This document shows positions 35,724 through 55,525 of a DNA stretch of 64,000 bases, one piece after another. Source of the DNA: an uncultured Gallionellaceae bacterium (lineage in GTDB: Bacteria; Pseudomonadota; Gammaproteobacteria; Burkholderiales; Gallionellaceae); contig CAINCU010000028.1 in NCBI GenBank assembly GCA_903847155.1, positions 124,001 to 188,000 of the forward strand, given 5' to 3'. Made by a program: the position numbers and the translations under genes. How positions within the stretch are numbered: the first letter of the stretch is position 1; each line of letters opens with the position of its first letter. The notes beneath the pieces were generated by a model that saw nothing but the letters and a program-made list of their open reading frames with translations, had not been told where the DNA came from and ran no database searches.

Positions 35724-36662
35724 TTATTGCACTCTCATCGCTGCGCCCTTTTCCCGATAGATCTCGGTCAGCATTTCAACAAAGCGATTGGCCTGTGGCG
35801 ACATGAATTTGCCTTTGCGCAATACCAAACCGTATCCGCGACGCGGGAAATATTGCGACAGTGGTATGCGCACGAGTTGCTCCTGCCCGGTCAGACAGAT
35901 GTCAGTGACGATGGAGATGCCCATACCCAGTTCGACATATTTCTTGATAACCTCCCAGCCGCCCGCTTCCAAGGTCACTTGGAACGACAAGTTGTGCTGC
36001 TGGAACACATACTTGACCACGCCCCAGGTCGAAAGGTGTCGCGGCGGCAGAATCAACCCGTAATGGCTGATATCTTCCAGCGTAAGATTTTCCTTTTGCG
36101 CCAGCGGATGGCCGATGGGCGTGATGAGCACCGGGTCGAACGTAACAATAGGTTGGTAAGTGATGTCTTCCGGCACATCCAACATGGAGCCAACGGCAAA
36201 ATCGATCTCGTCCGACTTCAACATCTTCAGGCCATCACGCCCGGTCACGTTGTAAAGACGCAAATGGATGCCCGGATAGGCTTTGCTGAATTGACTCACT
36301 GCTTCGGGCAGGATGTAGAGAATGGTCGACTCGCCCGCTCCGATGTTAAGTTCGCCGGATTCCAGCCGACCATGCTGGGCGATAAAATTGGCGTAGAGAT
36401 TATCTACACCTTCCACCAGCGGCTCTGACAGCACATAGAGCGCCTCGCCGTCGGGTGTCAGTTTTAGCACTGGACCGCGCCGCTCGAACAGAGTGGTATT
36501 CAACTCCCGCTCCAACGCCTGAATTTGCAAAGTGATCGACGGCTGGCTGAGAAACAGCTTCTGCGCCGCCTGCGTGATACTGCCGCTGCGCACCACCTGA
36601 CAGAAAGCGCGTATTTGTTTGAGGCGATTATTCTTATAATAGGCCTGTTTATCGGTAGGCAT
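35724..36662 (-). CDS. LysR-family transcriptional regulator (CysB-like effector domain)
   Basis: The 312-residue product has the N-terminal winged helix (RLKQIRAFCQVVRSGSITQAAQKL with LSQPSITLQIQALE) and a periplasmic-binding-protein-like effector domain. The block GWEVIKKYVELGMGISIVTD resembles CysB/Cbl. The gene is divergent from the rnfB-nifJ operon across a 171-base region with a LysR-type inverted repeat, so it is the best candidate for that operon's regulator. The effector is unknown. Confidence 0.88.
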   Translation of the reverse strand: MPTDKQAYYKNNRLKQIRAFCQVVRSGSITQAAQKLFLSQPSITLQIQALERELNTTLFERRGPVLKLTPDGEALYVLSEPLVEGVDNLYANFIAQHGRLESGELNIGAGESTILYILPEAVSQFSKAYPGIHLRLYNVTGRDGLKMLKSDEIDFAVGSMLDVPEDITYQPIVTFDPVLITPIGHPLAQKENLTLEDISHYGLILPPRHLSTWGVVKYVFQQHNLSFQVTLEAGGWEVIKKYVELGMGISIVTDICLTGQEQLVRIPLSQYFPRRGYGLVLRKGKFMSPQANRFVEMLTEIYREKGAAMRVQ

Positions 36663-36698
36663 CTCCCTCTCCTCGCTGGTATTGGCTATACTTAATAG

Positions 36699-36717
36699 TT
36701 CAATAGTCAGAATTGAA
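36699..36717. promoter_or_regulatory. Candidate LysR operator between the regulator and rnfB
   Basis: TTCAAT (36699-36704) and ATTGAA (36712-36717) form an inverted repeat with a seven-base spacer and contain the T-N11-A pattern. It lies in the shared promoter region of the divergent genes. Confidence 0.5.
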
Positions 36718-36833
36718 ATAATTCATTCTCCAATCGATTGTAACTTCAATACCCTTCCGGCTACAAATAGGAACTCTGCCACCCATTTTGGTGCCTTATA
36801 TAAAAAGCGTCGGACAGCAGGTCAGGAGGCAGT

Positions 36834-37715
36834 ATGGAAACACTACATAATATTCTTTTAACATCCGCCTTTATGGGTGGCTTAGGCGTTTTGCTGGCAT
36901 TCTTTCTTGCTATTGCCGACAAGCGCCTCTATGTGTTTGAAGATCCGCGCATCGGTGAAGTTGAAGAATTGCTGCCGCATTCCAATTGCGGAGCATGCGG
37001 GTTGGCGGGATGCCGGAATTTTGCCGAGAACGTGGTAGGGGGCAATATTGAACCCGCAAGCTGCACCGTGAGCACTCCCGATCAAGTCAAAAGTATCGCC
37101 GCACTGCTGGGGGTCGCCGCAGGCGAAGTGGAAAAGCGTGTGGCACGTCTGGCCTGCGCCGGTGGCAAGCATGTCGCCACCATGCGCGCCAAATATTCGG
37201 GAACTTCATCCTGTCGTGCCGCAGCAGTAACAGGTGGCGGTGGCAAAAGCTGCGCTTGGGGATGTCTGGGCTTGGGCGATTGCGGCGATGTGTGCGACTT
37301 TGATGCCATCCAGATGGACAAAAATGGTCTGCCCGTGGTCGATCTCGCCAAATGCACGGCCTGCGGCGACTGCGTTGATGTCTGCCCGAAGAACCTGTTC
37401 TCCATTCATGGCGTAACCCACAAATTATGGATGGCCTGTCGCAACGAAGACGACGGCGATGCGGCGGAAGCTGCCTGCGAAGTGGCCTGCACCGCTTGCG
37501 GGCGCTGCGTGGTCGATGCCGTGCCCGGCCTGATTCATCTCGAACGCAATCTGGCCGTAATTGATTACGAAAAGAATGCGAGTGCATGCTGTCAGGCTAT
37601 AGAACGCTGCCCCACAGGCGCGATAGTGTGGCTGGAAGGCGACCGCATCATCAAAGGAAAAGCTGCAAAGAAAATCATTCGTATCGAACCATTACCCGTT
37701 ACCGCAGAAGCATAA
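36834..37715 (+). CDS. rnfB: Rnf electron-transport complex, iron-sulfur subunit B (long form)
   Basis: RnfB passes electrons between ferredoxin and the membrane Rnf complex. The 293-residue product has an N-terminal membrane anchor (about 8-28), then the RnfB Fe-S motif HSNCGACGLAGCRNF (about 50-64) and multiple ferredoxin motifs: KSCAWGCLGLGDCGDVC, KCTACGDCVDVCPKN, ACTACGRCVVDAV and CCQAIERCPTGAI. It is longer than gammaproteobacterial RnfB (about 190 residues) and closer to the anaerobe type. It opens an operon with nifJ nine bases on. Confidence 0.92.
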   Translation: METLHNILLTSAFMGGLGVLLAFFLAIADKRLYVFEDPRIGEVEELLPHSNCGACGLAGCRNFAENVVGGNIEPASCTVSTPDQVKSIAALLGVAAGEVEKRVARLACAGGKHVATMRAKYSGTSSCRAAAVTGGGGKSCAWGCLGLGDCGDVCDFDAIQMDKNGLPVVDLAKCTACGDCVDVCPKNLFSIHGVTHKLWMACRNEDDGDAAEAACEVACTACGRCVVDAVPGLIHLERNLAVIDYEKNASACCQAIERCPTGAIVWLEGDRIIKGKAAKKIIRIEPLPVTAEA

Positions 37716-37724
37716 GGGAAAACC

Positions 37725-40700
37725 ATGTTAAACAAGCTTAAGCAAAAATTACTTGGCGCAGATTCCAACCTGGAAGGCCAAACCAAATTCAAATATCCCG
37801 GCGTGCGCGATGCGATCGATGGCAACACTGCCGTGATTATGGTGGAGCGCGAAGCCTCGCACGGCGCGGGCGCTTACCCCATCACGCCTTCCACGCAAAT
37901 GGGCGAATACTGGGCGGAAGAAGTCGCCAAGGGTCATTTGAATACCGCAGGCCAGCCGCTGATCTTCGTCGAACCGGAATCCGAGCATGCTGCCGCCGGT
38001 GTCACCGCCGGTATGTCCATGACCGGTATGCGCGCAGTGAATTTCACCTCGTCGCAAGGCTTGGCTTTTATGCACGAGTCGCTGTATGCCGCCGTCGGCA
38101 AGCGTCTGACTTACGTGCTGAACCTCGGCTGCCGCGCCATCACCAAGGCTTCGCTGAACGTGCATTGCGCGCATGACGACTACCACTGCGCCGACGATAC
38201 CGGCTTCATTCAGGTGATGGCCAAGAACGCGCAGGAAGCTGCCGACCTCAACATGATCGCGCGCAAGACCGCCGAGTTGGCGTTGACCCCGGCCATGGTC
38301 GGGCAGGACGGCTTCCTCACCACGCACCTGATTGAACCGATGCTGGTGCCGGAACGAGAATTGATCGCCGAATATCTGGGCATGGCCGACGACATCATCG
38401 ACACGCCCACCCCCGCCCAGCAAATGTTGTACGGCCCCAAACGCCGCCGCATTCCGGCCATATGGGATGTGGACAATCCGATGCAGTCCGGCATTGTCGC
38501 CAATCAGGATGCTTATATGCAGGCCGTGGCGGGACAGCGGCCGTATTTCTTCGAACATATCCCCGCGCTGGCCGACCAATGCATGAACGAGTTCCATGCG
38601 TTAACCGGTCGTCGTTATCAGCGTATCGACAACTACCGCTGCGACGATGCCGATTACATCATCCTCGGCATGGGCAGCATGACGGTGCAAGCCGCCGCCG
38701 TCGCCGACTGGATGCGCGAGAACCGCAAAGTCAAAGTGGGCGTGGTCAACATGACCATGTTCCGTCCGTTCCCCGGCGATCTGCTGGGCAAAGTGCTCAA
38801 AGGCAAAAAAGGCGTGGCGGTGCTGGAACGTACTGACCAGCCGCTGTCGGAAGACTTGCCGCTGATGCGCGAAGTGCGCGCCACCGTGACCAAGTGCGTG
38901 GAGAATGCGCGCGAAAATTCCTACCCCGGCTATGCGACTTACGAAAATGCAAAAGATATGCCGTCGTTGTATTCCGGCTGTTACGGCCTAGGTTCGCGCG
39001 ACCTGCAACCGGAAGGGCTGATCGCTGCGGTAGAGAACATGCTGCCCGGCGCAGTACACCGCAAGTTCTATTACCTGTCGGTGGATTTCGTGCGTGACGA
39101 ATCGGCCAACCCGAAACAGGAGATTCGCCAGCAGGAATTGCAAGCCGCCTATCCCGGCATCAAGGGCATGGCACTACGCGGCACGGAAAACCCCAACCTG
39201 CTGCCCAAGAATGCCGTGGCTGTGCGCATGCACTCCATCGGCGGCTGGGGCATGGTGACCACCGGCAAGAATCTGGCGATGACCTTGTTCGAGTTGCTTG
39301 GCTGGGACATCAAAGCCAATCCGAAATACGGCTCGGAGAAAAAAGGGCAGCCGACAACTTATTACCTTTCCGCCGCGCCGGAGCCGATCCGCATCAATTG
39401 CGAATACACCCACGTCGATGTAGTGATGTCGCCCGATCCGCAAGTGTTCGGGCATACCAATGCGGTGGACGGCTTAAAAAAGGGCGGCGTATTCATCATT
39501 CAGTGCAATCTGGGCAGCGCCGAAGCATTGTGGGAAACCTTCCCTATGCACATCCAGAAATACATCGCCGATAACAAAATCCGCGTGTTCTACCTCGACG
39601 CGTTCAAAATCGCGCGCGAAGAATCCAGCAACATCGACCTGCAACTGCGCATGCAGGGCAACGCTTTCCAGGGCGCGTTCTTCCGCGCCTCCGACGTGAA
39701 AGAGCGCGCCGGCTTAAGTGAAGAGACGCTGTTCACCGCCATCGAGAAGCAGCTCGAAGACAAGTTCGGCAAGAAGGGCAAGCGCATCGTCGATGACAAC
39801 CTGCGCGTGGTGCGTCGCGGTTATGAGGAGATCTTCGAGATCAAGCCGGAGCAAATGATCGTCGGCCAGCGCGCCAAAGTGGTGGGCAAGGCTGCACCGG
39901 CACTGCCCGTTATGCTCAAGCGCATGCCGGAAGGCGACGGCGGCGTTGCCGACGTGCATCGTTTCTGGGAACAGACTGGCAGCTTCTATATGAAGGGACA
40001 AGGCTCGGACAATTTGGTCGATCCGTTCATGGGTCTGTCGATTATTCCCGCCGTCACCGGTGTTTACCGCGACATGACCGGCGTGCGTTTCGATCACCCC
40101 GAATGGAAGGCGGAGAACTGCACCGCCTGCGGCGAATGTTTCACCGCCTGCCCGGACAGCGCCATCCCCGGTCTGGTTACCACCACCGCCGATGTGCTCA
40201 ACACTGCCATCCAGAACATCGAAACAGGAGGCCGTCCGACGCGCTTTCTGCGCAAGTTCAGTCGCGTCATCGACAAGAAATTGCGCAACGCACTAAATAA
40301 AGACGGACTGGATGTGCGCGCCCTGCTGGCGGGTGCCATCACCGAAGCGTTTGCCGAAGACGCAACGCAAGGCGAAGAGCGCACCAAGCTGGAAGCTGAA
40401 CTGGACCTGCTGCGCGAAGCCATCGGCAGCTTCAAGTTCGCCACCACCAAGCCGTACTGGACGCAAAAAGAGAAGAAGGAAAAAGGTGCTGGCGGCTTGT
40501 TCTCCATCACCATCAACCCCTATACCTGTAAGGGCTGTGCGCTGTGCGTGGAAGTGTGCGCCGACAATGCCTTGGCCATGGTCCCGCAAACCCAGGAAAG
40601 TATCGACACGCTGCGCGCCGATTGGAATTTCTGGCTCGACCTGCCGACCACACCGCCGCAATTCAGCCGCATCGACGACATCGACGAAAAAGTCGGTGCG

Positions 40701-42644
40701 CTGGAAACCTTGTTGCTGGACAAGCACAACTATCAATCCATGGTCTGCGGCGACGGCGCTTGTCTGGGCTGCGGCGAGAAGGCTTCCATTCACTTGTTCA
40801 CCAGTACCGTCACCGCCTTGATGCAACCGCGCGTGAAGAAGCACCTGAGCAAGCTGGACGGTCTGATTGCCGGTCTGGAAAACCATATCCGCGTGAAGCT
40901 CAGCAGCTCGGTCGATCTCACCGACACGCAAGCATTGATGCAGGCGATACAAACCAACGTCGGGCATGACCTGACGCTGGCCAACCTGTCGCAAAGTTTG
41001 TTGGCCAAGCATCCCGGCCAGCCTATCGACCCACAATGGCTGCGCCGCGTGAGCCAGATGCTGGAAAAACTCAAGGACCTGCGCTGGCGTTATATGGAAG
41101 GCCCGAGCAAGAAAGGCCGCGCCGAGATGGGCGTGGTAAATTCCACCGGATGCACTTCGGTGTGGGCATCCACTTATCCGTTCAATCCGTATCCGTTCCC
41201 GTGGACATCGCACCTGTTCCAGGATTCGCCGTCGGTGGCGATGGGTATCTTCGAAGGCCACATGTGCGCGATGGTGGAAGGTTTCAAAACCGTGCGCCAG
41301 GTCGAAATGGAACTGGCGGGTGGCTACGATCCGCTCACCAGCGACGACACTTTCGCCCGTATGAACTGGGAACAACTCACCGATGAAGAATGGCATCTGT
41401 GTCCGCCGGTACTGGCGATGGGCGGCGACGGCGCGATGTTCGACATCGGCTTCCAGAATTTGTCGCGCGCGCTGATGTCCGGCAAGCCGGTCAAGATTTT
41501 GATCGTGGATACGCAGGTGTATTCCAACACCGGCGGTCAAGCCTGCACCTCCGGCTTCATCGGCCAGGTGGCGGACATGTCGCCCTACGGTGCAGCCCAG
41601 CACGGCAAGAGCGAGAAACGCAAAGAGATCAGCATCATCGGCATGGCGCACCGCACCGCATTTGTGGCGCAATGTTCGCAGGCCAACACCACACATCTGC
41701 TGGAAAGCTTCATCGACGGTATCAACAGCCGCCGTCCGGCACTGTTCAATATCTATGCGGTATGCCCGCCGGAACATGGTGTGGGCGACGACAGCGCGGT
41801 GGCACAAAGCAAGATGGCGCTGGAATCGCGTGCTTTCCCGCTGTTCCGCTACAACCCGGATCTGGGCGTGACCTTCTCCGAATGCACCACGCTGGAAGGC
41901 AACCCGGCGCTGGATGCCGACTGGCCGATCTACGACCTCTCTTATGTGGACGAGAGCGGCAACAAGAAGAGCATGTCGCTGCCAATGACGTTCGCCGATT
42001 TCGCCCTGAGTGAAGGACGCTTCGCCAAGCAGTTCAAGAAAGCGCCGCCGGAAACATGGAACGACAACATGGTGTTGTTGGGCGATTTCCTGCAACTGTC
42101 CGAGGACGAGCGCGAAGGCAAGTTCCCGTTCATCTGGGCGGTGGACAAGAAGCAACGCCTGATGCGCGTACTGGTGTCGGTGGAGATGGTGCGTTCCTGC
42201 GAAGAGCGCCAGCAGTTCTGGCATCAGCTCAAGGACTTGACCAGCAAAGGCGGTGCGCAAGGTGGTGTCGATGAAGAAGAGATCACCAACCGTGTACGGC
42301 AGGAACTGATCCAGCAATTGTCGTCCGGCCTTGGCATCACGACAGCCGCCGCACCAGCAACTGCCAGCGCCGCTCCCATAGTCAGCGCCGAAGGCTACGA
42401 GCCGGTGTGGGTGGATACGCCTGAATGCACGGCCTGTGACGAATGCATGAATATCAACCCCAAGATATTCGCCTACGACGCGAACAAAAAAGCCGTGGTG
42501 ATTGACCCAAAAGCGGGCAGTTTCCTCGACATCGTCAAGGCGGCGGAAAAATGCACCGCCAGCATCATCCACCCCGGAACGCCATGGAACATGAAAGAGG
42601 CGAATCTGGACAAGCTCAAACTACGTGCGGCAAAGTACAACTGA
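37725..42644 (+). CDS. nifJ: Pyruvate:ferredoxin (flavodoxin) oxidoreductase, extended 1639-residue form
   Basis: It interconverts pyruvate + CoA and acetyl-CoA + CO2 with low-potential electrons. Domains in order: PFOR N-terminal (DGNTAVIMVEREASHGAGAY), gamma domain (near 500, VAVRMHSIGGWGMVTTG), EKR segment (VDDNLRVVRRGYEEIF), two 4Fe-4S motifs (CTACGECFTACP near 798, CKGCALCVEVC near 932, separated by an unusual roughly 100-residue helical insert), and the thiamine-diphosphate domain (MGGDGAMFDIG near 1231, YSNTGGQACTSG). A final tail has CTACDEC near 1568 and a later Cys, looking like a fused one-cluster ferredoxin. Standard NifJ is about 1190 residues. It is embedded between rnfB and rnfC; the rnfC start lies one base after its stop. 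Confidence 0.95.
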   Translation: MLNKLKQKLLGADSNLEGQTKFKYPGVRDAIDGNTAVIMVEREASHGAGAYPITPSTQMGEYWAEEVAKGHLNTAGQPLIFVEPESEHAAAGVTAGMSMTGMRAVNFTSSQGLAFMHESLYAAVGKRLTYVLNLGCRAITKASLNVHCAHDDYHCADDTGFIQVMAKNAQEAADLNMIARKTAELALTPAMVGQDGFLTTHLIEPMLVPERELIAEYLGMADDIIDTPTPAQQMLYGPKRRRIPAIWDVDNPMQSGIVANQDAYMQAVAGQRPYFFEHIPALADQCMNEFHALTGRRYQRIDNYRCDDADYIILGMGSMTVQAAAVADWMRENRKVKVGVVNMTMFRPFPGDLLGKVLKGKKGVAVLERTDQPLSEDLPLMREVRATVTKCVENARENSYPGYATYENAKDMPSLYSGCYGLGSRDLQPEGLIAAVENMLPGAVHRKFYYLSVDFVRDESANPKQEIRQQELQAAYPGIKGMALRGTENPNLLPKNAVAVRMHSIGGWGMVTTGKNLAMTLFELLGWDIKANPKYGSEKKGQPTTYYLSAAPEPIRINCEYTHVDVVMSPDPQVFGHTNAVDGLKKGGVFIIQCNLGSAEALWETFPMHIQKYIADNKIRVFYLDAFKIAREESSNIDLQLRMQGNAFQGAFFRASDVKERAGLSEETLFTAIEKQLEDKFGKKGKRIVDDNLRVVRRGYEEIFEIKPEQMIVGQRAKVVGKAAPALPVMLKRMPEGDGGVADVHRFWEQTGSFYMKGQGSDNLVDPFMGLSIIPAVTGVYRDMTGVRFDHPEWKAENCTACGECFTACPDSAIPGLVTTTADVLNTAIQNIETGGRPTRFLRKFSRVIDKKLRNALNKDGLDVRALLAGAITEAFAEDATQGEERTKLEAELDLLREAIGSFKFATTKPYWTQKEKKEKGAGGLFSITINPYTCKGCALCVEVCADNALAMVPQTQESIDTLRADWNFWLDLPTTPPQFSRIDDIDEKVGALETLLLDKHNYQSMVCGDGACLGCGEKASIHLFTSTVTALMQPRVKKHLSKLDGLIAGLENHIRVKLSSSVDLTDTQALMQAIQTNVGHDLTLANLSQSLLAKHPGQPIDPQWLRRVSQMLEKLKDLRWRYMEGPSKKGRAEMGVVNSTGCTSVWASTYPFNPYPFPWTSHLFQDSPSVAMGIFEGHMCAMVEGFKTVRQVEMELAGGYDPLTSDDTFARMNWEQLTDEEWHLCPPVLAMGGDGAMFDIGFQNLSRALMSGKPVKILIVDTQVYSNTGGQACTSGFIGQVADMSPYGAAQHGKSEKRKEISIIGMAHRTAFVAQCSQANTTHLLESFIDGINSRRPALFNIYAVCPPEHGVGDDSAVAQSKMALESRAFPLFRYNPDLGVTFSECTTLEGNPALDADWPIYDLSYVDESGNKKSMSLPMTFADFALSEGRFAKQFKKAPPETWNDNMVLLGDFLQLSEDEREGKFPFIWAVDKKQRLMRVLVSVEMVRSCEERQQFWHQLKDLTSKGGAQGGVDEEEITNRVRQELIQQLSSGLGITTAAAPATASAAPIVSAEGYEPVWVDTPECTACDECMNINPKIFAYDANKKAVVIDPKAGSFLDIVKAAEKCTASIIHPGTPWNMKEANLDKLKLRAAKYN

Positions 42645-42645
42645 T

Positions 42646-43986
42646 ATGCGATTGCCATTTCTAAAACGCGCGGCGACCTTTGAGCACGGCATCCATCCGG
42701 ACTACCACAAAGAGACCGGAAGTTTGCCGATACGCAGGTTGCCGTTTGCCCCGCGCCTGATCGTGCCGCTGTCGCAACATATCGGCAAACCGGCAGTCTG
42801 TTGCGTGAGCGTCGGACAGGAAGTGTTGCGCGGTCAGGTTATCGCCACCGCAGACGGTTTCGTTTCCTTGCCCGTACATGCGCCCGCCACCGGCGTGGTG
42901 GAGGCCATCGGCGTGATGCCTTCGGCCAGCGGCAAGATGATGGAGTCCATCACCATCCGCGTGTATCAGGCCGACAGCCAAGCGGTGCAAGTCAGCGCAC
43001 CGCAGGATATCGATGCCTTGGACAAGCAAGCCTTGCTGGCCGCGATTCAGGCCACGGGTCTTTCCGGTCTGGGCGGTGCGACATTCCCGGCACACGTCAA
43101 ACTGGCCGTGCCGCCGGAGACGCCGATCGACACGCTGGTGGTGAACGGCGCGGAATGCGAGCCGTTCCTCACTTGCGACCACCGCGTCATGGTCGAGCGC
43201 ACGCAGGATCTGATACGCGGCATCCGCATCGCCATGAAGGTCAGCGGTGCGCCACGCACGGTGATCGGGGTCGAAGACAACAAACCGGATGCCATCGCCG
43301 CGATCCAGGCCGCATTGCCCGCCGACGGCACCATCACAGTCAAAGCGCTGGAAACCAAATACCCGCAAGGCGCGGAAGACACCATCATCTACGCCTTGCT
43401 CGGACGCGAGATTCCCGCCGGACAACGCCCCGCCGCCATCGGCGTATTGGTGAACAACGTGATGACGCTGGCCTATCTGGGCAAGCTGCTGCCCGCCGGG
43501 GAAGGCATCGTGGAACGCGTGCTCACCGTGGCCGGACCGGCGGTGGAAAAGCCCGGCAACTACATCGTGCCAATCGGCACACCGCTGCGTTTCTTGCTGG
43601 AACAAGTCGGCGCGCGCAGCAGTGCCAAAGAGATCATCCTCGGCGGACCGATGATGGGCATGACCATCTCGTCGCTGGATGTGCCGATCACCAAAGGCAC
43701 TTCCGGCGTACTCGCGTTTGGCAAAGCGCAACTGCCGCAGGAAACGCAGCGCGTCTATTCCTGCGTCAAGTGCGGCGAATGCCTCAAGGTATGTCCGAAA
43801 TTCCTCAACCCGTCGCAGATGGGCTTGCTGGCAGCCAAGCGCGAATATGAGGCGATGGCGGAACGCTACAACCTCGACCGCTGTTTCGAGTGCGGCTGTT
43901 GCAGTTACGTCTGCCCCTCGCACATTCCGCTGGTACAACAATTCCGAATCGCCAAAGCGATCAACCGTGAAAAGGCGACATCATGA
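42646..43986 (+). CDS. rnfC: Rnf complex subunit C (NADH-binding, Fe-S)
   Basis: RnfC is the peripheral subunit that binds NAD(H)/FMN. The 446-residue product shows the RnfC N-terminal GIHPDYHKETGSLPIRRLP, the Complex I 51-kDa-like block GLSGLGGATFPAHVK and VVNGAECEPFLTCDHR, and two C-terminal 4Fe-4S motifs (CVKCGECLKVCP and CFECGCCSYVCP). The ATG at 42646 is preferred over a GTG at 42625 inside nifJ. It overlaps rnfD by four bases. Confidence 0.95.
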   Translation: MRLPFLKRAATFEHGIHPDYHKETGSLPIRRLPFAPRLIVPLSQHIGKPAVCCVSVGQEVLRGQVIATADGFVSLPVHAPATGVVEAIGVMPSASGKMMESITIRVYQADSQAVQVSAPQDIDALDKQALLAAIQATGLSGLGGATFPAHVKLAVPPETPIDTLVVNGAECEPFLTCDHRVMVERTQDLIRGIRIAMKVSGAPRTVIGVEDNKPDAIAAIQAALPADGTITVKALETKYPQGAEDTIIYALLGREIPAGQRPAAIGVLVNNVMTLAYLGKLLPAGEGIVERVLTVAGPAVEKPGNYIVPIGTPLRFLLEQVGARSSAKEIILGGPMMGMTISSLDVPITKGTSGVLAFGKAQLPQETQRVYSCVKCGECLKVCPKFLNPSQMGLLAAKREYEAMAERYNLDRCFECGCCSYVCPSHIPLVQQFRIAKAINREKATS

Positions 43987-45017
43987 GCATGGAACTTCGT
44001 ACTTCACCTCACCAACACAGTGGGCGCGATGTGCCAACTATCATGCGCAACGTGGTGTATGCCATGTTGCCGATCTGCGCCTTCTCGGTGTGGCAATTCG
44101 GCCTGTCCGCCGCCGCCTTGATCTTGGTGGTCACCGCCTCCTGTCTGGTGGCGGAGCGCATCAACAACCTGATCAGAGGCACCAGCAGTTCGCTGTCTGA
44201 CTGGAGCGCCACCATCACAGGCGTAATATTGGCGCTCACGCTACCGCCTTCCTTCCCGTTGTGGATGGGCGCAGTATCTGGCTTTGCGGCAATCTGGCTG
44301 GGCAAATCGCTGTTCGGTGGTCTTGGACAAAATCCTTTCAATCCGGCACTGGTCGGCCGCGCCTTCGTGCAAGCCGCTTTCCCCACGGCGATCAGCACTT
44401 GGGTGCCCGCCTTTTCCTCGCAGCGCTTCAACGAATTCATCCCGACATCGCTGACCGCACCGTTCATGACTCCGCCGGACATCGCGTTGTGGGTCAAACA
44501 GCAGGGTATTGACGCCTTCACCGGGGCCACGCCGCTGGCGCGCTGGAAGTTCGAGAACATCACACCGTCCTCCATGGATTTCCTGACTGGGCATATCACC
44601 GCCAGCGCAGGCGAAACTTCGGCCATTCTGATTCTGCTGTGCGGTCTGTATCTGGCTGCCAGAAAATTCCTCGACTGGCGTATCCCCGTTGCGGTATTGG
44701 GTAGCGCGATGCTGCTGGCTTGGGTGTTCCATCTGGCACAACCACTACGCTATCCCACGCCCAGCTTCGTGCTGCTTTCCGGCGGACTGATGTTAGGCGC
44801 GTGGTTCATGGCTACCGACATGGCGACCTCGCCGGTCACGCCGCGCGGCATCTGGCTGTATGGCGCATTGATCGGCATTTTGACCGTGGTAATACGTTAC
44901 TTTGGCGGCCTGACCGAAGGCGTGATGTACGCCATCCTGATCGCCAACGCTACCGCATCGCTACTGGACCAGTTCAACCAGCCCCGCATTCTCGGTGGCA
45001 AACGAGGTAAATCATGA
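43983..45017 (+). CDS. rnfD: Rnf complex subunit D (membrane, covalent FMN)
   Basis: The 344-residue protein has about ten membrane segments and belongs to the NqrB/RnfD family. The covalent FMN site is in DAFTGATPLARW, with Thr the flavin-linked residue. GQNPFNPALVGRAFVQAAFP is a family hallmark. It overlaps rnfC and rnfG by ATGA, which indicates tight translational coupling. Confidence 0.95.
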   Translation: MSMELRTSPHQHSGRDVPTIMRNVVYAMLPICAFSVWQFGLSAAALILVVTASCLVAERINNLIRGTSSSLSDWSATITGVILALTLPPSFPLWMGAVSGFAAIWLGKSLFGGLGQNPFNPALVGRAFVQAAFPTAISTWVPAFSSQRFNEFIPTSLTAPFMTPPDIALWVKQQGIDAFTGATPLARWKFENITPSSMDFLTGHITASAGETSAILILLCGLYLAARKFLDWRIPVAVLGSAMLLAWVFHLAQPLRYPTPSFVLLSGGLMLGAWFMATDMATSPVTPRGIWLYGALIGILTVVIRYFGGLTEGVMYAILIANATASLLDQFNQPRILGGKRGKS

Positions 45018-45694
45018 GTGACACACCAGAAGTAAATACGCCAAGTTTTGCCATGGTGCGCACGCTGGGTTTGGTGTCGGTCATCTGCGGCATCATCATT
45101 GTTGGTGTCTATCAGGTCACATTGCCGGCGGTGAATGCCAACAAGAAACTGGCGCTGGAGCGGCAAGTGTTTAAAGTCCTGCCGAATGCTAAAAAGATAG
45201 TTCCATATTTTGCCAGCGCGGCTGGCATCACCTCCGCCGAGGGTCAGGATCAGGCACCTGCCGGGTCGATAATCTTTTACGCGGTGTATGACGCGGCTAA
45301 CAATTTGTCCGGCATAGCTGCGGAAGCCTCTTCCTCAGGCTACGCCGATCAAGTGCGTATCCTTTACGCATATGACGCACAGAAGCAACTCATCACCGGC
45401 ATCGGCGTGATCTCCATGCGTGAAACCCCAGGCATCGGCGACAAGATACTCACCGATCAGGCTTTCCTGAAAAACTTTGAAGCGCTGGATGTGAGTTTGT
45501 CGGCTGATCTGCAAAGCCTTGCCAATGCAGTGAAGACCGTCAAGCATGGCACCAAGACCAGCCCGTGGCAAATTGATGCCATCGCCGGTGCCACCGTTAC
45601 CTCCAAGGCAGTAGGCCGTGGCATCAACGAATCCGCACAAAACTTGCTGCCAAAACTTCTGCCTCATCTCGAAAAATTAAGGAACCCATCATGA
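45014..45694 (+). CDS. rnfG: Rnf complex subunit G (covalent FMN)
   Basis: The 226-residue product has one N-terminal membrane anchor (VRTLGLVSVICGIIIVGVYQ) and a periplasmic FMN-binding domain with the flavinylation motif DAIAGATVTSKAV; GVISMRETPGIGDKI matches NqrC/RnfG. An ApbE flavin transferase would be needed to attach FMN; none is in this window. Overlaps of four bases with both neighbours continue the operon. Confidence 0.95.
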   Translation: MSDTPEVNTPSFAMVRTLGLVSVICGIIIVGVYQVTLPAVNANKKLALERQVFKVLPNAKKIVPYFASAAGITSAEGQDQAPAGSIIFYAVYDAANNLSGIAAEASSSGYADQVRILYAYDAQKQLITGIGVISMRETPGIGDKILTDQAFLKNFEALDVSLSADLQSLANAVKTVKHGTKTSPWQIDAIAGATVTSKAVGRGINESAQNLLPKLLPHLEKLRNPS

Positions 45695-46326
45695 GCGCTA
45701 TTACCAGCTTCGATGAATTTCTCAACGGCCTGTGGAAACAGAATCCGATCTTCGTCATGGTGTTGGGCATGTGCCCGACCCTCGCCGTTACCGTGTCGGC
45801 GGTGAACGCCATCTCCATGGGATTGGCCACCACCTTTGTGCTCGGCGCATCCTGCCTGCTGGTTTCGCTGCTACGCAACTCCATTCCCAAGCAAGTACGC
45901 ATCGCCAGCTACATCGTCATCATTGCCACCTTCGTCACCGTGGTGGACTATGCGATTCAGGCCATCAGTCTCGACTTGTATGTGGCTCTCGGCGCTTACA
46001 TCAAGCTGATCGTGGCCAACTGCGTGCTGCTGGGTCGTGCTGAAGCGCACGCCGCCAAGAATCCGCCGCTACCAGCCACGACAAACGCCATCGGCATGGG
46101 CTTGGGATTCACTCTTGGCTTGTTCATGATCGGCTGTGTGCGCGAAATCCTGGGGGCGGGCAAATTGTTCGGCGTGTCCCTGTTCGGCGACCACTTCCAA
46201 CCGTGGGTGGTGATGGTGTTGCCACCCGGTGGATTCTTTGTATTGGGATTCTGGCTCATCGTGATTGCCGCCTTCAGCCATTTCAGCAGCAAACGCAACG
46301 CACAGTTAAAAGGAGTACAGCTATGA
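45691..46326 (+). CDS. rnfE: Rnf complex subunit E
   Basis: The 211-residue integral membrane protein has six predicted segments and the NqrD/RnfE-family features GLWKQNPIFVMVLGMCPTLAV (half-membrane Cys) and IVANCVLLGRAEA. In the Nqr/Rnf structures such Cys residues of the E and A subunits hold an intramembrane Fe-S cluster. It is coupled to rnfG and rnfA by four-base overlaps. Confidence 0.94.
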   Translation: MSAITSFDEFLNGLWKQNPIFVMVLGMCPTLAVTVSAVNAISMGLATTFVLGASCLLVSLLRNSIPKQVRIASYIVIIATFVTVVDYAIQAISLDLYVALGAYIKLIVANCVLLGRAEAHAAKNPPLPATTNAIGMGLGFTLGLFMIGCVREILGAGKLFGVSLFGDHFQPWVVMVLPPGGFFVLGFWLIVIAAFSHFSSKRNAQLKGVQL

Positions 46327-46910
46327 ATCACGATTCCGTTGCCAATATCCTGCTGACCACCATCCTGCCTGGCAACTTTGTGCTGGCGATGTTCCTAGGC
46401 ATGTGTCCTTTCCTCGGCGTGTCGCAAAAACTCAGCACCGCCTTCCCGATGGGCATCGCCACCGCGTTCGTGATTCTGGTGGCCTCGGTTTCCGCCTATT
46501 TCCTGAACATGGTGCTGGTACATTTTCATCTGGAATTTCTCAGCGTCATCACCTTCATCACGGTCATCGCCTGCGCCGTACAACTGGTGGAAATGTACGT
46601 CAAGAAGGCCTTCCCGGAACTATTCCGGCAGCTTGGCATCTACCTACCGCTGATTACTACCAATTGCGCGGTGCTCGGCGTGGCCTTGTTCCAGACCGCG
46701 CGCCAATACAATTTCACCCAGGCGCTGGCCTACAGCATAGGCGGTGGCCTCGGCTTCACGCTGGCTTTGGTACTGATGGCCGGCGTGCGCGAACGCATGC
46801 AACTGTCCAACGTGCCGACACTGGTGCAAGGCGCAGCGCTCAGCGTGGTAATCGGCGGTTTATTGTCGCTGTCGTTCATGGGCTTTTCCGGGATCGGAGG
46901 TGGGGAATGA
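46323..46910 (+). CDS. rnfA: Rnf complex subunit A
   Basis: The 195-residue, six-segment membrane protein is homologous to RnfE/NqrE, with VLAMFLGMCPFLGVS and LPLITTNCAVLGVALFQ carrying the conserved intramembrane Cys. The ATG at 46323 overlaps the rnfE stop; the longer frame back to 46203 lies inside rnfE in another frame. With rnfE it forms the inverted pair around the Fe-S site. Confidence 0.94.
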   Translation: MNHDSVANILLTTILPGNFVLAMFLGMCPFLGVSQKLSTAFPMGIATAFVILVASVSAYFLNMVLVHFHLEFLSVITFITVIACAVQLVEMYVKKAFPELFRQLGIYLPLITTNCAVLGVALFQTARQYNFTQALAYSIGGGLGFTLALVLMAGVRERMQLSNVPTLVQGAALSVVIGGLLSLSFMGFSGIGGGE

Positions 46911-47089
46911 TCTATCTTGAAACTATCGGGCTGTTGCTGGGGATGATGCTGATGTTTGTCATCGTCGAAAAGATCGCGCACCGCTTTGCCCACAAACATC
47001 CGGAATTCGGCGCACCGCGCAAACTGGGTTGCGGCGGCTGCGGCGGCGGGCATTGCGAAAAAGGCTCTTGCGATTCTTCCGAGCACTGA
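46907..47089 (+). CDS. 60-residue Cys-rich membrane protein ending the rnf operon (NqrM-like architecture)
   Basis: The ATG overlaps the rnfA TGA (ATGA). The product has one N-terminal membrane helix (about residues 5-20, IGLLLGMMLMFVIV), a short charged stretch with three His, and a C-terminal glycine/cysteine cluster (LGCGGCGGGHCEKGSC, four Cys). This layout, a helix followed by a CGG...C...C tail, is that of NqrM, the small factor that helps build the NQR iron site. Rnf operons usually lack an annotated counterpart. A role in inserting the RnfA/RnfE cluster is inference. Confidence 0.75.
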   Translation: MIYLETIGLLLGMMLMFVIVEKIAHRFAHKHPEFGAPRKLGCGGCGGGHCEKGSCDSSEH

Positions 47090-47264: not shown

Positions 47265-49250
<1,986 letters not shown>

Positions 49251-54066: not shown

Positions 54067-54145
54067 ACATAATTGACTGTTGTTTATAGTTGGCGGGCGT
54101 ATAGTTCGCTTCGTAGTCAATTCCACACATAAAGGAGAACTGGAA

Positions 54146-55525
54146 ATGGATCAATCGAATCGTTACTCGGATCTGAGCCTTAAAGAAGAGGCTCTGATCA
54201 AAGGTGGTAAGCACATCCTGGTTGCTTACACCATGACACCGGCAGCTGGAGTCGGTTACCTGGAAGCGGCAGCGCACGTCGCTGCGGAGTCTTCCACTGG
54301 TACCAACGTTGAAGTAAGCACTACCGATGATTTCACCAAGGGCGTTGACGCGCTGGTGTACTTCATTGACGAAGCCAAGGGCATCATGAAGGTGGCTTAC
54401 CCGAACGATCTTTTCGATCGTAACGTGACCGACGGTCGTGCAATGATCGTTTCTTTCTTGACCTTGGCCATTGGCAACAACCAGGGTATGGGCGACATTG
54501 AATGTCTGCAGATGCAAGACTTCTACGTTCCTCAACGTATGTTGCAATTATTCGATGGTCCCGCAAAAGACATCTCTGATCTGTGGCGCATCTTGGGCCG
54601 TCCGGTAAAAGACGGCGGTTACATCTCCGGCACCATCATCAAACCGAAGTTGGGCCTGCGTCCTGAACCGTTCGCTAAGGCAGCCTATCAATTCTGGCTG
54701 GGCGGCGACTTCATCAAGAACGACGAGCCACAAGGCAACCAAACTTTCTGTCCAATGAAGAAAGTGATTCCGTTGGTCCATGACGCGATGAAACGTGCTC
54801 AAGACGAAACAGGCCAAGCCAAGCTGTTCTCGGCTAACATAACTGCTGACGACCACTATGAAATGTGTGCTCGTGCTGATTTCATTCTTGAGACTTTTGG
54901 CCCGGACGCTGACAAGGTTGCGTTCCTGGTTGACGGTTATGTGGGTGGTCCGGGTATGATTACGACAGCACGTCGTCAATACCCAAGCCAATATCTGCAC
55001 TACCATCGCGCTGGCCACGGTGCTGTGACCTCTCCTTCCTCCAAGCGCGGTTATACAGCGTTCGTGTTGGCCAAGATGTCGCGTTTGCAAGGCGCTTCGG
55101 GTATCCACGTTGGCACGATGGGCTTCGGCAAAATGGAAGGTGGCAAGGATGACCGCATCATCGCTTATATGATCGAGCGGGATTCTGTAGATGGTCCTTT
55201 CTACCATCAGGAGTGGTATGGCATGAAGCCAACGACCCCGATCATCTCCGGCGGTATGAATGCGCTGCGTCTGCCAGGTTTCTTCGAGAACCTCGGCCAC
55301 GGTAACGTGATCAACACAGCGGGTGGCGGCTCCTACGGCCACATTGATAGTCCTGCAGCCGGCGCGATTTCGCTGCGTCAAGCTTACGAGTGCTGGAAAT
55401 CGGGCGCTGATCCGATCCAGTTCGCAAAAGAGCACAAAGAGTTTGCCCGTGCATTCGAATCTTTCCCCAAAGATGCGGACAAGATATTCCCGGGCTGGCG
55501 CGAAAAGTTGGGCGTACACAAGTAA
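54146..55525 (+). CDS. cbbM: Form II RuBisCO large subunit
   Basis: This carboxylase fixes CO2 onto ribulose-1,5-bisphosphate; form II works best at high CO2 and low O2. It has 459 residues. The activating lysine is Lys191 in [14 protein letters not shown], the same number as in the Rhodospirillum enzyme; [25 protein letters not shown] and [17 protein letters not shown] are also present. AAAGGAG lies eight bases before the ATG. Codon choice is richer in T-ending codons than in neighbours, suggesting high expression or a distinct origin. A terminator follows, then cbbQ. Confidence 0.98.

Follow-up and report, generated by a model that had tools for sequence, protein, structure and literature searches.

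The subject of this report is a 64,000-nucleotide stretch of DNA, hereafter referred to as the window, from an uncultured Gallionellaceae bacterium whose genome assembly amounts to 3.08 Mb in 76 contigs. On its + strand the window carries an operon of eight genes, in which the gene for a pyruvate:ferredoxin oxidoreductase (PFOR) is inserted among those for the ion-translocating Rnf complex, the order being rnfB, the PFOR gene, rnfC, rnfD, rnfG, rnfE, rnfA, and a small gene encoding 60 residues. As judged from sequence comparisons, the PFOR represents a subfamily with a ferredoxin-like C-terminal tail, the gene for which is located, in nearly all of the loci seen, between rnfB and rnfCDGEA of a single Rnf clade. 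We consider it moderately likely that the two enzymes constitute a dedicated, ion-coupled module, in which electrons would be transferred through the tethered ferredoxin, mainly in the reductive direction; both the direction and the wiring are what we infer from the genes. A first-pass annotation had described the eight genes as one operon, and the coordinates bear this out: rnfB and the PFOR gene are separated by 9 bases and the PFOR gene and rnfC by one base, and five four-base overlaps follow.

The association of the two enzymes was examined in 300 genomes of the order. The PFOR was found in 14 of these with amino acid sequence identities of 54-100%, the next matches displaying ∼30% identity over part of the protein only. 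An RnfD of the matching clade (55-100% identity) occurs in exactly the same 14 genomes, with the next best match at 42%. With the thresholds used, both the PFOR and the Rnf clade were thus observed in 14 genomes, neither in 286, and one alone in none. All 14 PFOR loci adjoin rnf genes, although one that is cut by a contig end shows only rnfC. The 14 genomes, one of which (G265) is 87% complete, are clustered in four families (f1, f21, f43, and f51), and hence they do not represent 14 independent events. The search of genomes for a PFOR within rnf operons, which had been proposed earlier, was extended to named genomes, and the best 80 loci of at least 574 relatives were kept. In 77 of the 80, rnfB lies upstream of the PFOR gene, the exceptions being L076 (with rnfB downstream), L099 (its start being close to a contig edge), and L101. 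In 70 of the 80, rnfC lies downstream, and in the remaining ten the contig ends no more than 266 bases away. The median gaps are 49 bases between rnfB and the PFOR gene and 29 bases between the PFOR gene and rnfC. The recurrence of the order in relatives, together with the one-to-one co-occurrence of the PFOR with one Rnf clade in the 300 genomes, argues that the operon is not a chance arrangement, and the earlier suggestion of a dedicated PFOR-Rnf module is strongly supported by these counts together with the Rnf tree and the control sample described below.

The PFOR-Rnf operon is widespread and occurs in several phyla. Among the matches listed, many of which are metagenome bins, the hosts by record title include Gallionellaceae, Thiobacillaceae, Rhodocyclales, Rhodoferax, Rubrivivax, Rhodoblastus, Sedimenticola, Thiodiazotropha, Thiocapsa, Allochromatium, Shewanella atlantica, the Solemya velum symbiont, Acidobacteria, Opitutales, and Kiritimatiellae. 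A single scan, made with two patterns, confirmed no viral copies of the module, and a frame located between rnfC and rnfD in locus L046 gave no family match. Among the papers listed in searches of the open-licence literature, which were judged mostly by title and the start of the abstract, no description of the PFOR-Rnf linkage was found.

The PFOR gene extends from 37725 to 42644 (+ strand) and encodes a protein of 1639 residues. Its membership in the 2-oxoacid:ferredoxin oxidoreductase superfamily is evident from the POR_N, PFOR_II, POR, Fe-S (Fer4), and TPP (TPP_enzyme_C) domains, identified with Pfam and arranged as in other PFORs, and from the catalytic motifs and the 12 cysteines of three iron-sulfur clusters, as aligned with seven canonical NifJ sequences. 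These cysteines are present in 87 of the 87 PFOR members (85 distinct) that were aligned, each of them 1,600 residues or longer. Also conserved with respect to the seven NifJ proteins are the threonine of the YPITPS motif, an arginine that aligns with Arg 114 of the Desulfovibrio africanus enzyme, and the YSNTGGQ motif. The residue numbering and the catalytic roles of these three elements, and likewise the roles of the cluster cysteines, are assumed here. The solved PFOR structures are matched both by the sequence and by the modeled C-terminal half of the protein (6cio, 6cin, and 1b0p). The best-scoring families are pyruvate enzymes, namely TIGR02176 with 427 bits and PorA with 224, and others score lower. 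On the basis of family and conserved residues, the substrate would be pyruvate.

The protein is not, however, the NifJ for which the first-pass annotation had named the gene. Against TIGR02176, the equivalog model for NifJ/PFOR, it scores 427.1 bits, in three stretches, versus a cut-off of 911.35, and its identity to the canonical NifJ of the same order is ∼29%. Assignment as a canonical NifJ is ruled out by score, identity, and phylogenetic tree alike, and by these sequence measures the PFOR is a member of a distinct subfamily. It shares with NifJ and the single-chain PFORs (D. africanus, 1b0p; Moorella thermoacetica, 6cin) the same domains, cluster cysteines, and catalytic motifs, but it differs from them in falling into its own clade and in having two inserts of ∼90-100 residues and a new C-terminus. 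The first insert, from residues 827 to 915 (40203-40469), is positioned between the two canonical Fe-S motifs and is helical in the model. The second, from residues 1035 to 1132 (40827-41120), lies between the proximal-cluster cysteines and is modeled as long helices.

The new C-terminus consists of a linker and a ferredoxin domain. The linker, an Ala/Pro-rich, variable segment that is delineated by residues 1515 to 1560 in the window protein (42267-42404), is partly disordered in the model, with pLDDT values below 50 from residues 1535 to 1556. Among the 87 sequences, the region preceding the tail cysteines is 43-105 residues long and contains 31% Ala plus Pro, and its conservation of 0.47 is the lowest of any region tabulated, versus 0.76 for the ferredoxin domain. 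The domain itself, formed by residues 1563 to 1620 (42411-42584), is recognized by Pfam as Fer4_13, and would harbor a [4Fe-4S] cluster ligated by Cys 1568, Cys 1571, Cys 1574, and Cys 1610. The first three are each found in 87 of the 87 members, and Cys 1610 in 85. A stricter tail pattern gave 57 of 92, being too strict or the gene being cut, and the alignment counts were used instead. Ferredoxin I from D. africanus (1fxr and 1dax) is a partner of PFOR. The tail matches this ferredoxin in sequence with an E-value of 5e-6 and also in fold (1fxr: TMt of 0.77, 1.7 Å, Foldseek E-value of 0.066), as judged from an AlphaFold2 model that covers PFOR residues 775-1639 only (mean pLDDT of 68.8 and pTM of 0.53). 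In the window protein, the ferredoxin is covalently tethered to the PFOR.

A control sample of 288 genomes from another phylum, centered on an Opitutaceae genome, provided both close and more distant relatives of the PFOR. The ten close relatives (60-64% identity) all adjoin rnfB or rnfC, and the ferredoxin tail is present in nine of the nine for which the sequence includes the C-terminus. In six sister PFORs (38-39% identity, 1,549-1,656 residues), the tail is absent in every case, and for five of them the 18-19 kb that was fetched contained no rnf gene; the remaining one is considered below. A third type of PFOR, with ∼36% identity and ∼1,680 residues, was encountered in other Pseudomonadota (L142, L147, L219, and L220). 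Of the relatives found in the 300-genome search and in the search that yielded this type, 13 were taken for a look at their gene context. Contexts were fetched for four of the eight genomes in which the latter search showed this type. In all four, judged by the cysteine pattern only, there is a tail of the form C-x2-C-x2-C...C following a Gly/Ala-rich stretch, and no rnf gene was seen in the 8.8-19 kb fetched. The next gene, in four out of four and within ∼40 bases, encodes a protein of 956-968 residues with GltD-like and DHODB-like domains, a fusion that we take to have the make-up of NfnB plus NfnA. Note that it passes the curated model PRK12779, which is named otherwise than Nfn. NfnAB transhydrogenase, which is soluble and contains no ion pump, would be a partner analogous to Rnf that accompanies a different PFOR clade; it is possible that the PFOR and this Nfn-like gene are a soluble counterpart of the PFOR-Rnf module. 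In a tree calculated without the tail columns, the PFOR types and the canonical NifJ proteins separate, each with support of 100, with the program warning of long branches and odd composition. In addition, PFOR-like frames of ∼700-750 residues in L017, L018, and L023 (L148-L150) can be aligned with the TPP domain and with the ferredoxin tail at ∼25-32% identity, and no rnf match was found within the stretch fetched for them.

All six subunits of an Rnf complex (A, B, C, D, E, and G) are encoded in the window. The genes, all on the + strand, are rnfB in its long form (36834-37715), rnfC (42646-43986; TIGR01945, 494 bits), rnfD (43983-45017; TIGR01946), rnfG (45014-45694; FMN_bind in Pfam, with TIGR01947 at 88 bits under a cut-off of 102), rnfE (45691-46326; TIGR01948), and rnfA (46323-46910, from the ATG at 46323; Rnf-Nqr in Pfam, with TIGR01943 at 223.7 bits just under 229.3). 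The ATG at 46323 thus overlaps rnfE, and the start of rnfC is likewise an ATG, at 42646, with an alternative in-frame GTG at 42625. Every subunit exceeds a Pfam cut-off, and the NCBIfam cut-offs are passed by RnfC, RnfD, and RnfE but not by RnfA, RnfB, or RnfG. In a tree of RnfC, RnfD, RnfE, and RnfA, 39 of the 68 eligible PFOR-linked operons split from 19 operons of the order A-B-C-D-G-E with support of 100. The latter, the Rnf1/Rsx type of the Proteobacteria, have homologous subunits but a different gene order, no PFOR gene, and mostly a shorter RnfB. Indeed, whereas 20 cysteines are invariant in the 84 RnfB members aligned from the module (82 distinct), 17 other RnfB proteins from A-B-C-D-G-E operons are mostly 177-192 residues long and contain 12-14 cysteines. 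The host genome has three rnfC genes over the cut-off. The other two rnf operons, L153 and L154, have the order A-B-C-D-G-E, belong to the separate clade, and gave no PFOR match in the 8.8 and 14 kb fetched, respectively. The nearest kin of L153, in genome G071, is located 16 kb from nifH.

An anaerobe-like layout had also been proposed for the operon. In clostridia the rnf order is C-D-G-E-A-B. The window operon shares with the Rnf of clostridia and Methanosarcina the C-D-G-E-A order and a long, multi-cluster RnfB, and to this extent the comparison holds; rnfB, however, comes first, ahead of the PFOR gene. It further differs from these systems in the small Cys-rich gene that follows rnfA and in its hosts, which are largely proteobacteria among the matches listed. 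The tree contained no clostridial Rnf.

In a comparison of subunit phylogenies, the PFOR-linked Rnf proteins constitute a well-supported clade, and the kinship of PFOR plus RnfB differs from that of RnfDGEA. In the tree of PFOR plus RnfB the window is placed among the Gallionellaceae, and in that of RnfDGEA with L033, L034, and L037 as well as L077, a bin that carries the title Methylotenera. The close PFOR relatives G024 and L041 carry another DGEA. From these sequences the operon seems to be a mosaic, its 3' half (43983-47089, as opposed to 36834-42644) having been exchanged in the lineage of the window. In the 26 loci compared, such exchanges involved the same Rnf clade each time.

The small gene (46907-47089, + strand) encodes a protein with a hydrophobic, membrane-like start, the membrane helix being judged by eye, followed by HPEFG and a Cys-rich tail. 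It belongs to no Pfam or NCBIfam family at the cut-offs. A Cys-rich small frame follows rnfA in 53 of 58 loci with a first pattern and in 62 of 70 with another; the eight misses of the latter scan include two A-B-C-D-G-E operons. The window gene scores highest against L033, L034, L037, and L077. NqrM has a maturation role in Na+-NQR, and the small protein resembles it in its hydrophobic start and Cys-rich end. It is not NqrM itself (PF04400), to which the window protein gave no match and the best of four relatives (L105) 17.9 bits versus 22; two hosts of the module, G670 and G672, carry true NqrM genes at other loci. Other sub-threshold family matches, at ∼15 bits for one small protein, were taken as chance. 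By analogy with NqrM, the small gene is a candidate iron or maturation factor, which probably takes part in installing the iron site in RnfA/RnfE. On the other side of the operon, a LysR-type gene (35724-36662, - strand; HTH_1 and LysR_substrate in Pfam) is divergent from rnfB and is a candidate regulator. A LysR protein more than 55% identical occupies this position in 28 loci, window included. The intervening gap (36663-36833) holds the palindrome TTCAAT-N7-ATTGAA, but no shared operator was found: this 19-base palindrome is absent from the other 27 loci, and the gap in L035 contains a similar but different one. Directly downstream of the operon is thiC, preceded by a TPP riboswitch at 47266-47356. 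PFOR requires TPP (thiamine pyrophosphate).

The metabolic setting of the module was assessed in the 14 genomes that contain it and in 12 that do not. Pyruvate dehydrogenase E1 is present in all 14 and in 9 of the 12, and therefore the PFOR is not simply a replacement for pyruvate dehydrogenase. RuBisCO was observed in 11 of 14 and 11 of 12. The earlier picture of a Calvin-cycle autotroph agrees with the host, in which the RuBisCO large subunit is encoded within the window at 54080-55525, but since three of the 14 show none, the module is not tied to the Calvin cycle. A clear isocitrate lyase is found in 8 of 14 module genomes and 2 of 12 others. The module is thus not generally a substitute for the glyoxylate shunt, the remaining six, host included, having none or matches of ∼50 bits. 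Neighboring genes were counted in 56 loci with rnfA, 49 of which have at least 3 kb downstream; these are cluster counts, with identities tested on representatives only. Phosphoenolpyruvate (PEP) synthase follows the operon in seven loci, five from betaproteobacteria classed as Gallionellaceae-like by their title or the kinship of their PFOR, and two from gammaproteobacteria. An FNR-like reductase, with representatives under the NCBIfam FNR cut-offs, is a neighbor in 17 loci, and the flavin transferase ApbE, which attaches FMN to Rnf subunits, in six, on either side of the module. In three loci a thiol peroxidase, which would guard Fe-S enzymes, is encoded between the PFOR gene and rnfC (L067, 15080-15586; L068, 14890-15429; L091, 14978-15475; the family was tested on L067). 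Because PEP synthase uses up pyruvate in gluconeogenesis, its presence favors the synthetic direction. The direction had been left open previously; with PEP synthase in 7 of 56 loci and pyruvate dehydrogenase E1 in 14 of 14 genomes, gene context leans to synthesis, and the main direction is probably the formation of pyruvate.

In the mechanism that we propose, electrons would move between the PFOR body and RnfB by way of a ferredoxin that is tethered rather than diffusing, and the two enzymes would catalyze as one unit the interconversion of acetyl-CoA, CO2, and NADH, coupled to an ion gradient, with pyruvate, CoA, and NAD+. With less certainty, both in the host, a Calvin-cycle autotroph, and in most hosts, the reaction would run mainly reductively as an ion-driven synthesis of pyruvate from acetyl-CoA, for example during the use of a storage polymer or acetate, the pyruvate then being converted to PEP by PEP synthase or pyruvate phosphate dikinase. 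Reversal would conserve energy during the oxidation of pyruvate without oxygen. For comparison, heterotrophic carboxylation of acetyl-CoA by PFOR was inferred for Kentron symbionts during the use of storage polymers, with Rnf listed separately (PMC6593406). More tentatively still, PFOR and Rnf might constitute one membrane supercomplex, in which the ferredoxin would swing between the distal cluster of PFOR and RnfB like the lipoyl arm in pyruvate dehydrogenase. Such an assembly would be a reversible, ion-pumping pyruvate synthase/dehydrogenase operating without diffusible ferredoxin. It would have been passed between phyla as a single module, would offer Calvin-cycle autotrophs a second, ion-driven carboxylation that fixes CO2, and would have a parallel soluble version wired to Nfn.

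Several observations weigh against a module of this kind. An untailed sister PFOR, L218 (G679), is located ∼2.8 kb downstream of the rnfA of a module-type Rnf. On the presumption that two contigs join, it probably sits on the far side of their break from a PFOR-Rnf operon, such that two PFORs would occur in one cluster. Because of this untailed protein near rnf, and because of the tailed type with no rnf in the stretch fetched, the tail is not a signature of Rnf as such; so, on present sequences, what it accompanies would be a dedicated partner for pyridine nucleotides, which may be Rnf but also an Nfn-like enzyme. The confidence of the AlphaFold2 model is moderate, as given by the pLDDT and pTM values above. 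PEP synthase was unseen in 49 of the 56 contexts, 7 of the 56 having less than 3 kb downstream, and the host genome gave no PEP synthase match with one query, a frame resembling pyruvate phosphate dikinase being present as a partial match. The FNR-like gene, found in 17 of the 56, suggests that some electrons may leave towards NADP, and free ferredoxins may serve as carriers. Finally, pyruvate is a putative substrate, and the protein scores below the curated PFOR cut-off.

The same module could operate chiefly in the opposite direction, the PFOR oxidizing pyruvate while Rnf pumps ions and reduces NAD+, as a low-oxygen alternative to pyruvate dehydrogenase, for instance in the fermentation of glycogen. 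Rnf can run both ways, and oxidation is the downhill direction. Several module hosts are phototrophs or symbionts, in which glycogen may be fermented in the dark, the thiol peroxidase in three loci fits function near oxygen, and three module genomes show no RuBisCO. The PEP synthase genes point the other way, however, and autotrophs with pyruvate dehydrogenase have a smaller oxidative need, such that we regard a mainly oxidative role as rather unlikely, if a serious contender. Much the same holds for the view that the genes merely travel together through horizontal transfer and selection for common regulation, with PFOR reducing an ordinary ferredoxin and Rnf oxidizing it without direct contact. 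The spread across phyla and the exchanged 3' half in the lineage of the window speak for it, and the FNR-like neighbor implies a shared ferredoxin pool. If a free ferredoxin served, on the other hand, there would be no obvious need for a tail with four conserved cysteines. A dedicated partner gene accompanies the tailed types but mostly not their untailed sisters, and in the 300 genomes sampled neither the Rnf clade nor the PFOR occurs without the other; this explanation, too, appears doubtful.

Two further possibilities concern the PFOR reaction itself. The two large inserts and the low score against the curated PFOR equivalog could signify that another 2-oxoacid is the substrate coupled to Rnf. 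Given that the best families are pyruvate enzymes, that the YPITPS threonine, the arginine aligned with Arg 114, and YSNTGGQ are conserved, and that PEP synthase adjoins some loci, this is improbable. Less probable again, and in our opinion hardly tenable, is a role as NifJ in feeding nitrogenase, with Rnf as an accompanying source of electrons. NifJ supplies electrons to nitrogenase in Klebsiella, and nifH is present in the host genome. It is over the cut-off, however, in only seven of the 14 module genomes, host included (and in 4 of the 12 others), the rnf operon class found near nif in relatives is a different one, and the PFOR has little identity to canonical NifJ. At the level of genomes, then, a PFOR that tracks nitrogenase only, which the first-pass annotation had named as the outcome that would overturn its proposal, is contradicted.

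For iron oxidizers, a Gallionellaceae pangenome study calls the specific function of Rnf and ferredoxin unknown (PMC10734462), and for purple sulfur bacteria, the 2011 report on the A. vinosum genome describes the role of its three rnf clusters as "entirely unclear" (PMC3368242). The operon described here provides one Rnf class with a definite partner as well as a likely substrate, and the proposal is testable by deletion of a single domain. If it is true that the tethered ferredoxin feeds RnfB, a 2-oxoacid and an ion gradient would be connected by a direct route. Such a route could allow fixation of CO2 onto acetyl-CoA in autotrophs supposed to rely purely on the Calvin cycle. The finding may also bear on the heterotrophic CO2 fixation proposed for the Kentron symbionts (PMC6593406). 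The placement of the PFOR gene within the Rnf operon, here and in several phyla, suggests that bacteria with the module possess a dedicated ion-coupled machine for making, or burning, pyruvate.

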